Shown here: positions 3,267 through 7,446 of the stretch, piece by piece
Layout: every line of letters starts with the position of its first letter
Position numbering within the stretch: position 1 is the stretch's first letter
IMG/VR virus record: IMGVR_UViG_3300009376_000075
Location: 1 to 24,839 of that record
Strand: one strand, 5' to 3'
DNA length: 24,839 nt
From: a virus
The notes under the pieces: model-generated
The model's input: the letters and a program-made list of their open reading frames with translations, nothing else
Told to the model about the DNA's origin: nothing
The model's database searches: none
Program-made: the position numbers and the translations under genes

Positions 3267-3800
3267 ATGAAAGCAACCCTCACAAGTTTAGAGAAAATAA
3301 AGCGCAACCCAAACAATCCGCGCGTCTTGAAAGATGAGAACTTAGATAAGCTAGTATCCTCTATTAAAGAGTTTCCACAAATGCTTGATATTAGACCAAT
3401 CGTTGTTAATGACGATATGGTGGTATTAGGTGGCAATATGCGCCTAGTGGCTTGCAAAGAAGCAGGGTTAAAGAAAGTACCAGTAATCAAAGCTAGTAGT
3501 TTGACCGAAGAGCAACAAAGAGAATTCATTATCAAAGATAACGTAGGATTTGGTGAGTGGGATTGGGATTTATTATCTACCGAATGGGATACAGAAGCTC
3601 TTGACAAATGGGGGCTTAAAACTTGGGGTACATCTGAAATCGATTTAGATGATTTTTTTGAAGATGATACGACAGAGAAGCAAAATGCCAACAAGATTGT
3701 TTTAGAATACAACGATGAAGATTACACTCAAATCATTGAATTGTTTGCTAATCACGAAGGAACTAAAGAATCTATTGTTTTGAATCTGTTACAAACATGA
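3267..3800 (+). CDS. ParB/Srx-fold protein, probable DNA-modification partner
   Basis: 177 residues. The ParB-like domain covers residues 5-80: NPNNPRV (14-20), a helix LDKLVSSIKEF, IRPIVV, then the ParB box VLGGNMRLVACKEAG (53-67). Next comes the segment FIIKDNVGFGEWDWDLLSTEW (87-107) with DKWGL (113-117), which is typical of ParB-type domains sitting in front of phage and bacterial DNA methyltransferases. Here the following gene, overlapping by 4 bases, is instead a DNA guanine transglycosylase. In the bacterial Dpd cluster, DpdA works with DpdB, also described as ParB-like, so this protein may target or assist DpdA. That role is inference. Confidence 0.75.
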   Translation: MKATLTSLEKIKRNPNNPRVLKDENLDKLVSSIKEFPQMLDIRPIVVNDDMVVLGGNMRLVACKEAGLKKVPVIKASSLTEEQQREFIIKDNVGFGEWDWDLLSTEWDTEALDKWGLKTWGTSEIDLDDFFEDDTTEKQNANKIVLEYNDEDYTQIIELFANHEGTKESIVLNLLQT

Positions 3801-4537
3801 AGATTTATCTAGCTATTAATAATCTTATTATGTTTACTCATGCTGAACCTAAAGAAATATACTGTCTATCTTCCTACCATTACTCACAGAAAGACAAAAC
3901 CTTGACTTCTTATTTTCCTAAATGGAAAGACTTTATTCTTGATTCTGGGATATTTACTTATCTGAATGGCAAAGACGCTCGCGGGGTAGATTGGGAGAAA
4001 TATGTAGACAACTATGCTGTTTATGTAAAAAAACACAACATTAAAAACTATGTTGAAGTGGACATTGATAAGATTGTTGGTTTAAAAGAAGTGGAGCGGT
4101 TGAGAGAGCGACTAGAAAAAAAAGTAGGCTGGCAATCAATGCCAGTTTGGCACTTAAATAGAGGATATGACAAGTGGCTAGAGATATGTCACGATTATAG
4201 CTATATCTGTTTTGGTGCATTTATAACCGATGGACTGAAAGAGAGTAAATATCATAAAATCCCTAAATTTATTGCTGATGCTAGAGCAAAAAAGTGTAAT
4301 GTACACGGATTAGGCATGACTCACTTCAAATGGCTTAAATCGTTGAGGTTTCATTCGGTAGATAGTAGTTCATGGATTGGTGGAGTTAGATATGGAGCTG
4401 TATCTGTGTTTGATAAAGATAGAGTTAGAACTATCAAGAAACCAGAGAACAAGAAATTCACAAATTACAAACAAGTAGGTGAGCATAACTTAAGAGAGTG
4501 GACAAAATTCATAAACTATGCAGAACACAGATTATAA
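3797..4537 (+). CDS. dpdA: DpdA-type DNA guanine transglycosylase (short phage form)
   Basis: 246 residues. DpdA enzymes are DNA relatives of tRNA-guanine transglycosylase: they cut out guanine from DNA and insert a 7-deazaguanine base. TGT-fold landmarks are in order: FILDSGIFTY (46-55, the DSG with the presumed proton-transfer Asp49), VEVDID (86-91), MPVWHLNRG (115-123), ICFGAF (137-142), VHGLGMT (169-175) and FHSVDSSSW (185-193), where Asp189 is in the place of the nucleophile. The CxCxxC zinc site of bacterial TGT is absent, as in short phage DpdA forms. It starts at an ATGA overlap with the ParB-like gene and is followed by five genes for making the base. Confidence 0.88.
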   Translation: MKIYLAINNLIMFTHAEPKEIYCLSSYHYSQKDKTLTSYFPKWKDFILDSGIFTYLNGKDARGVDWEKYVDNYAVYVKKHNIKNYVEVDIDKIVGLKEVERLRERLEKKVGWQSMPVWHLNRGYDKWLEICHDYSYICFGAFITDGLKESKYHKIPKFIADARAKKCNVHGLGMTHFKWLKSLRFHSVDSSSWIGGVRYGAVSVFDKDRVRTIKKPENKKFTNYKQVGEHNLREWTKFINYAEHRL

Positions 4538-4553
4538 TAACAAGGAGCGTCTT

Positions 4554-4952
4554 ATGAGTAAAAGAATACCGATACACGGAAATATGAGTCGACCAGCAGA
4601 CCCAGCTGATGCGATTCAAGAAGTTGAAAAAGGAAAGGTAGAGTGGACAGGAGGCGATTTAATAGTTTCTGTTTCGACTCAAGAGTTCACCTCTGTATGC
4701 CCAACAACAGGACAGCCAGACTTTAACACTATAACGATAATCTATAAGCCTGATAGGTTTTATGTAGAATCCAAAACTATGAAATTCTACCTATGGTCTT
4801 ATCGTGAATATGGGGCGCATTGTGAAACTCTAGCTAAAAAGATAGCTGAAGACATATACTTAGCTATTGAGCCTTTAAGTATTGAAGTAATAGTGAATCA
4901 GTTTCCTAGAGGCGGACTAAAGATTATTTCAAACTTTAAAAAAGAGAGGTAA
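4554..4952 (+). CDS. queF: QueF-like 7-cyano-7-deazaguanine reductase
   Basis: Start ATG 4554 with AAGGAG at 4542-4547; an upstream in-frame ATG (4518) lies inside dpdA. 132 residues, the size of the short (type I) QueF, which reduces preQ0 to preQ1 with NADPH. Seen: EFTSVCPTTGQPDF (44-57) with the thioimide-forming Cys49 and Asp56; the NADPH motif ESKTMK (72-77); PRGG (118-121). Odd: where QueF has FHE, this protein reads AHCE (88-91), so the position of the conserved His carries Cys, with His one residue earlier. The NADPH motif argues for a reductase rather than the amidine-forming QueF-L, but altered chemistry is possible. Confidence 0.85.
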   Translation: MSKRIPIHGNMSRPADPADAIQEVEKGKVEWTGGDLIVSVSTQEFTSVCPTTGQPDFNTITIIYKPDRFYVESKTMKFYLWSYREYGAHCETLAKKIAEDIYLAIEPLSIEVIVNQFPRGGLKIISNFKKER

Positions 4953-4954
4953 TT

Positions 4955-5620
4955 ATGAAAAAAGCACTAGTATTACTAAGCGGTGGTCAAGATAGTACAA
5001 CGTGTTTGTATTGGGCGCTGAAGAATTTTGACCAAGTGCAAGCTATTGGCTTCGATTATGGTCAAATGCACTCTCAAGAACTAAAGCAAGCAAGAAAGAT
5101 TGCTGATTTTGTTAATGTTGAGTATAAGATATTTAATATCAAAGGCTTGCTTGCTAGAAGCAGTTTAACTGAACACACTAATCACAACGATAAAAGCTAC
5201 GTTGATAAAGATTTACCAGCCTCGTTTACCAGTGGGAGAAACATTTTGTTTCTAACTATAGCTGGTAGTTATTGTGCCGAGAAAGGAATAAACGATATTG
5301 TGACAGGGGTTTGTCAAACAGATTATTCTGGATACCCAGATTGCCGTAGAACCACCATCGACTCAATGCAGAACACTTTAAGTCTAGGTCTAGGAAACGG
5401 TGATTACAGAATACATACACCTTTGATGTATTTGGATAAAGCAGAAACTTGGGGATTGGCGTGTGACCTTAATTGTTTAGGTGTAATCGTCCATGATACT
5501 TTAACAGATTATGACGGTGATATGACACTCAACGAATGGGGTAGAGGTAAAGCCGACAACCCAGCAAGCAAGCTAAGAATGAAAGGTTATTATGAAGCCA
5601 AGGAGAGAGGATGGATTTAG
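4955..5620 (+). CDS. queC: QueC-like 7-deazaguanine synthase lacking the zinc cysteines
   Basis: 221 residues. QueC turns 7-carboxy-7-deazaguanine into preQ0 through an amide, using ATP and ammonia. The N-type pyrophosphatase loop SGGQDSTTCL is at 9-18, FDYGQMHSQE at 33-42, SGRNILFL at 93-100 and TGVCQTDYSGYPDCR at 117-131, all as in E. coli QueC. The C-terminal zinc site is not: E. coli has TLTCYNG then CGHCAAC, while this protein has TLTDYDG (182-188) and WGRGKADNPAS (195-205) before KLRMKG. All four zinc cysteines are replaced. The fold may hold without zinc, or the product may differ (for instance stopping at the amide). GAGAGG precedes ATG 4955. Confidence 0.88.
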   Translation: MKKALVLLSGGQDSTTCLYWALKNFDQVQAIGFDYGQMHSQELKQARKIADFVNVEYKIFNIKGLLARSSLTEHTNHNDKSYVDKDLPASFTSGRNILFLTIAGSYCAEKGINDIVTGVCQTDYSGYPDCRRTTIDSMQNTLSLGLGNGDYRIHTPLMYLDKAETWGLACDLNCLGVIVHDTLTDYDGDMTLNEWGRGKADNPASKLRMKGYYEAKERGWI

Positions 5621-6042
5621 TAACCGCATCTCGTTATCACGACATAAGCACAGGACACAGAGTATCCGGTCACGAAAACAAATGCGCCCATATTCACGGA
5701 CATAACTATAGATTTCATTTTACTGTAGCTACCGATGAATTAGACTCTATAGGTAGAGTAATAGACTTCTCTGTGATTAAAGTAAAACTGTGTCAATGGC
5801 TTGAAGACAACTATGACCACAAGTTTCTAATGTGGGAGAACGACCCGTTGTTGGAAAAAATGATAGATATAGTACCTAAAGATATTGTTGTTACACCTTT
5901 CAATCCAACAGCCGAGAATATCGCTCAACATTTGGTTGAAGTTGTAGCACCTAAACAGCTAGATAAAACAGGCTGTAAACTAATTAAATGTGTAATAGAC
6001 GAAACAAGGAAATGTTCAGCATCTTATGAAATTAAATATTAG
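5611..6042 (+). CDS. queD: QueD, 6-carboxytetrahydropterin synthase
   Basis: 143 residues; makes 6-carboxy-5,6,7,8-tetrahydropterin from dihydroneopterin triphosphate, the FolE product. The zinc and catalytic residues are in place: STGHRVSGH (13-21, zinc His16), then CAHIHGHNY (25-33), the CxxxHGH motif with catalytic Cys25 and zinc His29 and His31. VIDFSVIK (50-57) and NPTAENIA match the family. Length is normal (about 120-145). AAGGAG at 5600-5605 serves ATG 5611; the gene overlaps the end of queC by 10 bases. Confidence 0.93.
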   Translation: MDLVTASRYHDISTGHRVSGHENKCAHIHGHNYRFHFTVATDELDSIGRVIDFSVIKVKLCQWLEDNYDHKFLMWENDPLLEKMIDIVPKDIVVTPFNPTAENIAQHLVEVVAPKQLDKTGCKLIKCVIDETRKCSASYEIKY

Positions 6043-6625
6043 TGAAATTTTTTACTCCTTACAAGGAGAAGGGTTAAGAATTGGTACGCCAACAGTATTC
6101 ATCCGCTTACAAGGATGTAAAGCGAAACATGCTTGCTTTAAAAAAGGGATAGTTTGTGATACGGAGTTTGAATCTGGCAAAGAGTATCAACTTGAGCAAC
6201 TGGTAGATTGGATTAAGCAAAACGCTCATGGTTGTAAAGAGATAACTTGGACAGGCGGAGAGCCAACCGACCAGCTAACAGATGAAATGATTAAGTTCTT
6301 CAAAGATAAAGGGTACTATCAAGCGATAGAAACAAGTGGCTTGAACCCAGTTCCTGATGGATTAGATTATGTAGCCCTATCTCCTAAAGTTGGAGAACAC
6401 GTTATCAAGAAGAATTTTAAAAAGGTTGACGAACTTAAATATGTTAGACACTCAGGGCAAGAAATACCTCAACCAAGCATTGAGGCTGACCATTATTGGG
6501 TAAGCCCTCATTCTGATGGATTTCAAATCAATCGCGAAAATCTCAGACATTGTATAGACCTGTGTAAAGCCAATCCTAAATGGAAGCTATCTTTACAATC
6601 GCACAAAGTGTGGAGAGTGTTGTGA
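6026..6625 (+). CDS. queE: QueE, 7-carboxy-7-deazaguanine synthase (unusual Cys spacing)
   Basis: 199 residues; radical-SAM enzyme that contracts 6-carboxytetrahydropterin to 7-carboxy-7-deazaguanine. Seen: IFYSLQGEG (8-16), FIRLQGC (25-31), TGGEP (76-80), IETSG (101-105), LSPK (118-121) and SLQSHK (189-194), all QueE landmarks. The iron-sulfur cysteines are Cys31, Cys37 and Cys44, that is C-x5-C-x6-C before DTEF, not C-x3-C-x2-C nor the C-x14-C-x2-C form known in some QueE. All three cysteines needed for a cluster are present. The gene overlaps queD by 17 bases with no strong ribosome site, so it is probably coupled. Confidence 0.9.
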   Translation: MKLNISEIFYSLQGEGLRIGTPTVFIRLQGCKAKHACFKKGIVCDTEFESGKEYQLEQLVDWIKQNAHGCKEITWTGGEPTDQLTDEMIKFFKDKGYYQAIETSGLNPVPDGLDYVALSPKVGEHVIKKNFKKVDELKYVRHSGQEIPQPSIEADHYWVSPHSDGFQINRENLRHCIDLCKANPKWKLSLQSHKVWRVL

Positions 6626-7446
6626 ATCAGCGAATCATAACTTGGAAAGATATTAAAAGTCGAGTAAAAGAGTTAGGCTTAGATGATAATTCGAAGTACT
6701 ACGGAGTTCCAAGAGGCGGTCAAGCCATAGCATCTTATTTGAACCCAGTAGACACCCCAGAAGAGGCAGATTTTATCATTGATGACCTAATCGACTCAGG
6801 AGCAACAAAAAACGCCTATATGAGCAAATATAACAAGCCATTCATTGGACTATATGATAAACAAGCAGAAGGTATTACAGATTGGTTGGAATTTCCATGG
6901 GAAAAAGATGGCGATAAAGAAGTTGAAGAAAACATGGCTCGTGTTATACAATACTTTGACGATGGAAATAGAGAGGGGCTAAAAGAAACTCCTAAAAGGT
7001 ATGTTAAGTTTTTAAAAGAATTCTTATCCCCTGATGATTTTAACTTTACCACATTTGACGGTGAAGGCACAGATGAAATGATTGTGCAATGTAACATTCC
7101 TTTTTACTCTTTGTGTGAACATCACTTAGCACCTTTTTTTGGTGTAGCACACATTGCTTATATCCCAAGTGGTAGAATAGTAGGTTTATCAAAACTAGCA
7201 AGAACGGTTGAAAAGTACACAAGAAGACTTCAGAACCAAGAAAGAATAACAACTCAAGTTGCTGAAAGAATACAAAAAGAGTTAAACCCATTAGGGGTTG
7301 GTGTTGTTTTAAAGGCGCAACACCTATGTATGGCAATGAGAGGGGTAAAGAAACACGATGTATATACTACAACATCTAAGATGATTGGTGCATTTAAAGA
7401 GGATATGAATACTAGGCACGAATTCTTAAAACTTATCAAAACTTAA
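6622..7446 (+). CDS. folE: Fusion of Gpt-like guanine phosphoribosyltransferase and FolE (GTP cyclohydrolase I)
   Basis: I start at GTG 6622 (GTGA overlap with queE; GGAG at 6612-6615), giving 274 residues; ATG 6580 would add 14 residues inside queE. Residues 4-98 parallel E. coli Gpt in order: IITW (5-8), GVPRGG (28-33), the PRPP loop FIIDDLIDSGAT (51-62), LYDKQ (77-81) and DWLEFPW (87-93), matching VTW, SRGG, VIDDLVDTGGT, AKP and TWIEQPW, including the purine-contacting Lys and Trp. The flexible loop of Gpt is shortened. Residues 100-274 are FolE: zinc ligands Cys165 and His168 in CEHHLAPFFG, Cys236 in HLCM, then TTTS and TRHEFL. FolE supplies dihydroneopterin triphosphate to QueD. Confidence 0.9.
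   Translation: MNQRIITWKDIKSRVKELGLDDNSKYYGVPRGGQAIASYLNPVDTPEEADFIIDDLIDSGATKNAYMSKYNKPFIGLYDKQAEGITDWLEFPWEKDGDKEVEENMARVIQYFDDGNREGLKETPKRYVKFLKEFLSPDDFNFTTFDGEGTDEMIVQCNIPFYSLCEHHLAPFFGVAHIAYIPSGRIVGLSKLARTVEKYTRRLQNQERITTQVAERIQKELNPLGVGVVLKAQHLCMAMRGVKKHDVYTTTSKMIGAFKEDMNTRHEFLKLIKT

Follow-up and report, generated by a model that had tools for sequence, protein, structure and literature searches.

The window, by which we mean the whole 24,839-nucleotide stretch of viral DNA that was analysed, contains an open reading frame (6622-7446, + strand; 274 residues, GTG start) that joins a minimal Gpt-like phosphoribosyltransferase (PRT) domain (residues 1-96; 6622..6909, +) to GTP cyclohydrolase I (FolE; 6910..7446, +). 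We find that this fusion recurs in many phages together with the DNA guanine transglycosylase DpdA, and we judge it somewhat probable that the N-terminal domain salvages the guanine released by DpdA for conversion to GTP, the substrate used by FolE.

The fusion is preceded on its own strand by a series of genes that almost overlap one another: a ParB-like gene, dpdA, queF, queC, queD and queE, in that order. The structural module lies downstream. The dpdA-like gene (3797..4537, +) matches PHROG 887 (E 5e-45) and encodes a DSGxF motif (D49) and D189; its product has no match among the NCBIfam models or to the TGT Pfam model, and residues D49, H170 and D189 are present in 102 of 102 aligned homologues. 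Two of the conserved aspartates we take to be the TGT catalytic residues. The ParB-like gene (3267-3800) overlaps the start of dpdA, and a ParB-like feature is also found beneath the dpdA match of Fusobacterium phage phiFN37. The next gene is a queF of the preQ1 synthase type (4518..4952, +; TIGR03139 at 105.7 bits against a cut-off of 86.9, and PF14489), followed by queC (4955..5620, +; PF06508, E 5e-58), queD (5611..6042, +; PF01242, E 3e-26, and PHROG 2389) and a queE-like radical SAM enzyme gene (6026..6625, +; PHROG 2076, QueE-like, E 3e-24). The queE stop and the fusion start share a GTGA, and a GGAGAG read directly from the sequence (6612..6617, +) is the likely ribosome-binding site for the GTG at 6622. 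With DpdA and the preQ0 pathway genes both present, the window, judged by the genes of this uncultured contig, is predicted to encode a DpdA-type cluster for 7-deazaguanine modification of DNA.

The C-terminal half of the fusion is GTP cyclohydrolase I, as had been proposed: PF01227 covers residues 105-272 (E 4e-61), NCBIfam FolE models match it as well, and the zinc site is represented by CEHH (165-168) and HLC (234-236). Residues C165, E166, H167, H168, H234 and C236 of this CEHH and HxC site are invariant in 42 aligned fusion rows (41 of 46 rows plus the window; L057, L077, L085, L109 and L168 were left out). At L077:7896-9635, a 580-residue ORF carries a fused FolE whose zinc-site motif is interrupted, between the CEHH and the Cys region, by an intein-like insertion with HNH-like features.

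The identity of the N-terminal domain emerges from the family and from structure prediction. Taken alone, the window domain has no Pfam match, and its weak matches are to PHROG 8995 (‘phosphoribosyl transferase’, E 0.0011) and, in the PDB, to XGPRT chains (E 0.2-0.7), which rank below an unrelated methyltransferase (0.16). A 64-row family profile, made up of the window and 63 N-domains from a non-redundant set of 76 (we omitted the rows of named phages, the copy of the window and some truncated rows), finds XGPRT among PDB sequences at E 1.7e-7, and Pribosyltran is detected in 24 of the 64 family members (best 2.5e-5). The AlphaFold2 model of the domain has a pLDDT of 93.9 and a pTM of 0.84 (94.4 and 0.81 for the full fusion, modelled as a monomer only). 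All 17 Foldseek matches of the domain model at E ≤0.001 are to E. coli or Yersinia XGPRT, and VIA-align ranks E. coli XGPRT 4jls first (Z 10.2, 98 residues, 3.2 Å), although a match by either program is evidence of fold and not of function. The original prediction, that the first 98 residues are Gpt-like and that a predicted structure would resemble Gpt, is thus borne out by the profile, the Pribosyltran matches, the model and both structure comparisons, with a domain of ∼96 residues for which only XGPRT was matched at E ≤0.001. According to these models, the domain has a class I PRT fold, to which XGPRT is nearest.

The Gpt motifs that had been named from the single sequence are conserved across the fused family. 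In the window protein they are PRGG (30-33), DDLIDSGAT (54-62), DK (79-80), W88 and FPWE (91-94), which include the PPi-loop RGG, the PRPP-loop DDxxDSGxT and the purine-site Lys and Trp of a Gpt-type PRT; by alignment with Gpt, K80 and W88 are presumably the residues that hold the purine. Among 59 distinct N-domains fetched by FolE patterns or with the whole window protein, which avoids selection on the motifs, R31, G32, G33, D54, D55, D58, S59, T62, W88 and E94 are present in all 59, G60 in 58 and K80 in 57. Similarly, in a wider set of 132 N-domains, partly fetched by motif, D54, D55, D58 and T62 are found in every sequence, and K80 in 118. The median dN/dS is 0.20 for the N-domain compared to 0.09 for FolE, based on 305 usable pairs out of 846, which are non-independent. 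The N-domain is under purifying selection, and its constraint is firm although a little looser than that on FolE.

The fused domain nevertheless differs from a standard Gpt, of which it is a loop-less relative. The spacing from RGG to DD in the fused sequences is 20-33 residues (median 21; 154 of 158 rows readable), compared to 50 in an ordinary alphaproteobacterial Gpt, our sole yardstick, and ∼30 residues between PRGG and DDLIDSG are absent from all 154 sequences. The lost stretch corresponds to one Gpt strand and the flexible loop, which in a Gpt-type PRT lies between strands 2 and 3; the model has no residues for such a loop. The loop had been described as shortened, and the domain is indeed shorter than Gpt, but this wording understated the loss of an entire stretch. 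The loss characterises the family as a whole and does not reflect damage to the gene of this phage. PRT flexible loops normally shield the active site, and their loss here argues more strongly than anything else for a non-catalytic role.

A tblastn search of 50,697 phage records detects FolE in 392. The full fusion is present in 33 of these public records, corresponding to 24 phages by name, which infect Vibrio, Pseudomonas, Stenotrophomonas, Xanthomonas, Variovorax and Sphingomonas; the fused proteins, where annotated, are named GTP cyclohydrolase. In IMG/VR, at least 143 contigs carry the fusion (after the removal of 8 loci that duplicated a contig) and encode at least 126 distinct proteins, with two of the contigs, L090 and L091, encoding a protein identical to that of the window. 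These records and contigs rule out a fusion confined to the window contig or produced by its assembly. In a tree of 32 rows, the 22 fused domains form one clade (support 100/100), and a single fusion event would be the simplest reading; the 10 non-fused PRT rows, two of which are long branches, lie outside this clade, and the tree does not order them.

The fusion is closely linked to DpdA. Among the fusion contigs listed, DpdA lies within the fetched stretch in 120 of 143, in 113 of the 116 that have at least 2 kb upstream, and in all 96 that have at least 3 kb upstream. QueD and QueE are likewise present in 96 of these 96 listed contigs, QueC is found in 56 and a separate QueF in 5. DpdA is also present in the five fused named phages examined (5/5). 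The original prediction would have been undermined by a fusion that is widespread without dpdA, and we observe the opposite; the same fusion, which it suggested seeking in other dpdA phages, is indeed there in public phage records and in IMG/VR. The scarcity of QueC may indicate that some fused phages insert an earlier intermediate or use the host QueC.

Among the at least 594 pattern matches listed from cellular genomes, we found no intact fusion, which is weak evidence of its rarity there and not proof. Two relatives appear among the listed cellular matches: an ordinary Gpt from an alphaproteobacterium, and a broken fragment beside queE in a Lewinella MAG. At the Lewinella locus (L178:7977-8873), the mini-Gpt fragment comes after a fragment of queE and then continues as unrelated protein sequence, which probably reflects a chimera formed during assembly at a piece of phage DNA. 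Moreover, the N-domain has no other fusion partner among the seven families tested; the 158 multi-family ORFs are all GptN-FolE (158/158).

Stand-alone Gpt-like PRTs are found in other, unrelated phages, in four lineages beside the same pathway genes. In Flavobacterium phage immuto the PRT lies directly before folE (queD-queE-PRT-folE-...-dpdA), and in Brevundimonas phage MaInes directly after it (dNMP kinase-folE-PRT; L169:17302-19135). In the cycle considered below, phosphorylation of GMP could fall to the MaInes dNMP kinase. In Pseudomonas MIJ3 the PRT directly precedes queE, in Synechococcus BUCT-ZZ01 it directly follows queE, and in Cellulophaga phi19:2 and the Campylobacter phages it lies elsewhere in a genome that also carries FolE and QueE. 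The RGG-to-DD spacings of these PRTs are 26 (immuto), 37 (Campylobacter), 38 (MIJ3), 46 (BUCT-ZZ01), 50 (Cellulophaga) and 56 (Brevundimonas). Of the phage records, complete or long, that have a stand-alone Gpt-like PRT and whose genomes were searched, 6 of 7 have both FolE and QueE, the exception being MT835497 (55.7 kb), in which our searches of the record found neither. In a control with cellular Gpt, 11 phage records matched, 7 of them from Cellulophaga or Brevundimonas phages; one phage of each kind was searched, and both have FolE, QueE and a DpdA homologue. No Que context was shown for the other 4 of the 11, but 3 of these are <5 kb and uninformative; by lineage, 2 of the 3 long ones have a Que context.

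DpdA homologues of the immuto type are present in immuto, phi19:2, MaInes, F379, WX1, CP220 and CPt10. An apparent absence of DpdA from the Campylobacter phages was overturned by an immuto-seeded three-sequence profile (F379, WX1) and by tblastn (CP220, CPt10); PHROG 887, the TGT Pfam model and PHROG 7068 had all missed the homologue in F379. The Campylobacter homologues are ∼44% identical to immuto DpdA, and the CP220 copy (L192:1495-2271) is annotated as a hypothetical protein. Cui et al. reportedly defined, in 2023, a DpdA3 subfamily for full replacement, and may already report the Campylobacter homologue. In MIJ3 and BUCT-ZZ01, which have the PRT, FolE and QueE, no DpdA was recognised with PHROG and Pfam models or the immuto-seeded profile. 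In CP220 and CPt10 a PRT occurs together with a DpdA homologue of the immuto type, and the available text of PMC8306585 reports that 100% of dG is replaced by dADG in these phages. Every genomic guanine would thus be released in CP220 and CPt10, and a PRT is present there.

Other phages have the pathway without a recognised PRT. The N-domain is lacking in seven FolE relatives whose identity over FolE is 72-76%; DpdA is present at six of these loci (L098-L103), and the seventh (L097) ends before dpdA. Among 18 further records or contigs that carry folE or dpdA, the 64-row profile found a PRT only in CP220; the 17 without one include 9g, VH7D, R31B, Youna2, BSTP12 and Ahp1. These counts rest on a profile tuned to the fused form; PF00156 is a poor detector here and missed NP1 and CP220. 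In Vibrio phage R31B (Queuovirinae; DpdA and FolE present), tblastn had suggested a remnant of the domain, but the annotated protein does not contain it. The PRT is presumably optional, and would be useful where host salvage is limiting or guanine replacement is heavy.

DpdA frees one guanine for each modified base. In the proposed cycle, a minimal Gpt-type 6-oxopurine PRT would salvage this guanine (guanine + PRPP → GMP + PPi), kinases of the host or the phage would convert GMP to GTP, FolE, QueD, QueE, QueC and QueF would convert GTP to the 7-deazaguanine base, and DpdA would insert that base, freeing the next guanine. Because one guanine leaves the DNA for each GTP used, the cycle would be stoichiometric. 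The fusion could not channel GMP directly, since two phosphorylations separate GMP from GTP; it would instead match production to demand and couple expression. The analysis demonstrates the gene, its fold, its conservation, the selection on it and its link to dpdA and the que genes; catalysis, guanine as the substrate and recycling itself are what we infer here. For an assumed 57 kb genome, 100 progeny, 30% replacement and a volume of 1 fL, ∼0.67 million guanines would be released, or ∼1 mM, and under these values the effect could be large. Recycling is favoured by the Gpt-like fold, by conserved motifs under purifying selection and by the constant presence of DpdA, QueD and QueE in the 96 listed contigs. 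It is also favoured by the stand-alone PRTs that adjoin folE or queE, when FolE itself occurs in 392 of 50,697 phage records, and by CP220 and CPt10, which carry a PRT together with a DpdA homologue. Of the recycling fusion originally predicted, the Gpt-like fold, the fusion and the tie to dpdA stand. The missing loop region, the absence of a PRT from 17 of the 18 records or contigs compared, and the two lineages (MIJ3, BUCT-ZZ01) with a PRT but no recognised DpdA count against recycling and keep its rivals in consideration. Hosts also normally possess their own guanine salvage, which again counts against it. Only tentatively do we put forward the complete picture, a closed guanine cycle that would run through a loop-less 96-residue PRT tethered to FolE. 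In this picture one clade has gained the PRT for the pathway by fusion and several others have done so by gene neighbourhood, and the PRT would matter most where replacement is heavy.

The main rival is a regulatory domain, in which the PRT fold would act as a binding site for PRPP, GMP, guanine or ppGpp and adjust FolE, with no turnover of its own. The loop is missing in every fused sequence measured, the domain is fused directly to the committed enzyme, and the PDB relatives of Gpt include the ppGpp-bound 5vog and PyrR, a regulator with a PRT fold, all as this reading would have it. K80, W88 and the general-base Asp58 are, however, kept as strictly as the PRPP loop, and a FolE-tethered regulator leaves unexplained the stand-alone PRTs of the same pathways, some of which have the full loop; we therefore consider regulation unlikely, though a serious competitor. 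If the domain were decaying or purely structural, its shortening, its absence from some close relatives and a dN/dS about twice that of FolE could be accommodated, but catalytic motifs that are nearly invariant over at least 126 distinct proteins of at least 143 contigs, with a dN/dS of 0.20, make this scarcely credible.

Two other readings keep the catalysis but change its purpose or substrate. The PRT could salvage xanthine or hypoxanthine, or guanine from degraded host DNA or RNA, for general GTP supply, and the nearest structures are indeed XGPRT and HGXPRT; such a role is improbable given the strict presence of DpdA in the 96 listed contigs and of FolE and QueE in all searched stand-alone-PRT phage records except MT835497. 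It is more doubtful still that the PRT makes the nucleotide of a 7-deazaguanine base (preQ0 or preQ1) for incorporation by a polymerase. A modified dGTP was once proposed for the Campylobacter phages (Hutinet 2019, in the portion available), MIJ3 and BUCT-ZZ01 have a PRT without a recognised DpdA, and some clusters include MazG-like or dNMP kinase genes, but the fused form accompanies DpdA, which uses the free base, and the Campylobacter phages do encode an immuto-type DpdA homologue.

If guanine recycling is correct, base-exchange modification would be a metabolic cycle and not a drain on GTP, the fused gene that 24 phages have under the name GTP cyclohydrolase would encode a second, unannotated activity, and an unusually small PRT would work without its flexible loop. 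If the domain is inactive, it would offer a new allosteric handle on FolE. The original prediction came with no known description of the fusion, and we found none, nor any treatment of DpdA and a phosphoribosyltransferase together, in a literature search outside which most subscription journals lay, although the sequences have been public for years as GTP cyclohydrolase. The accessible text of the Sphingomonas phage MMDA13 paper calls Gp31, one of these fusions, FolE only, and the phage phosphoribosyltransferase literature that we found, as far as available, concerns NAMPT. Hutinet 2019, in its accessible main text, describes DpdA systems and Gat-QueC and does not contain the term ‘phosphoribosyl’, and the fate of the released guanine is not treated in the available passages on DpdA systems.

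The fused domain shares with E. coli Gpt/XGPRT (1a95, 4jls; PF00156) the fold, the RGG and DDxxDSGxT motifs, the purine-site Lys and Trp and an FPWE-like end, but it is only ∼96 residues long compared to ∼152, has a loop spacing of 20-33 compared to ∼50 without the strand and flexible loop, and is, in the window, fused to FolE and without a single-sequence Pfam match. The stand-alone PHROG 8995 PRTs are Gpt-like as well and occur with FolE and QueE in 6 of 6 (immuto, MaInes, phi19:2, Campylobacter Firehammervirus, BUCT-ZZ01 and MIJ3); they differ in being separate genes outside the fused clade, of which 4 of 6 adjoin folE or queE, and only that of immuto is as short as the fused form (26), the others ranging from 37 to 56. 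The phage DpdA systems described by Hutinet 2019, in the parts available, have FolE, QueD, QueE, QueC and DpdA in one cluster, as here. Gat-QueC (PMC6884629, as available; Pseudomonas NP1) is likewise a phage-specific extra enzyme fused to an enzyme of the preQ0 pathway, but the activity added in Gat-QueC modifies the product, whereas the fused PRT would act on the substrate side.
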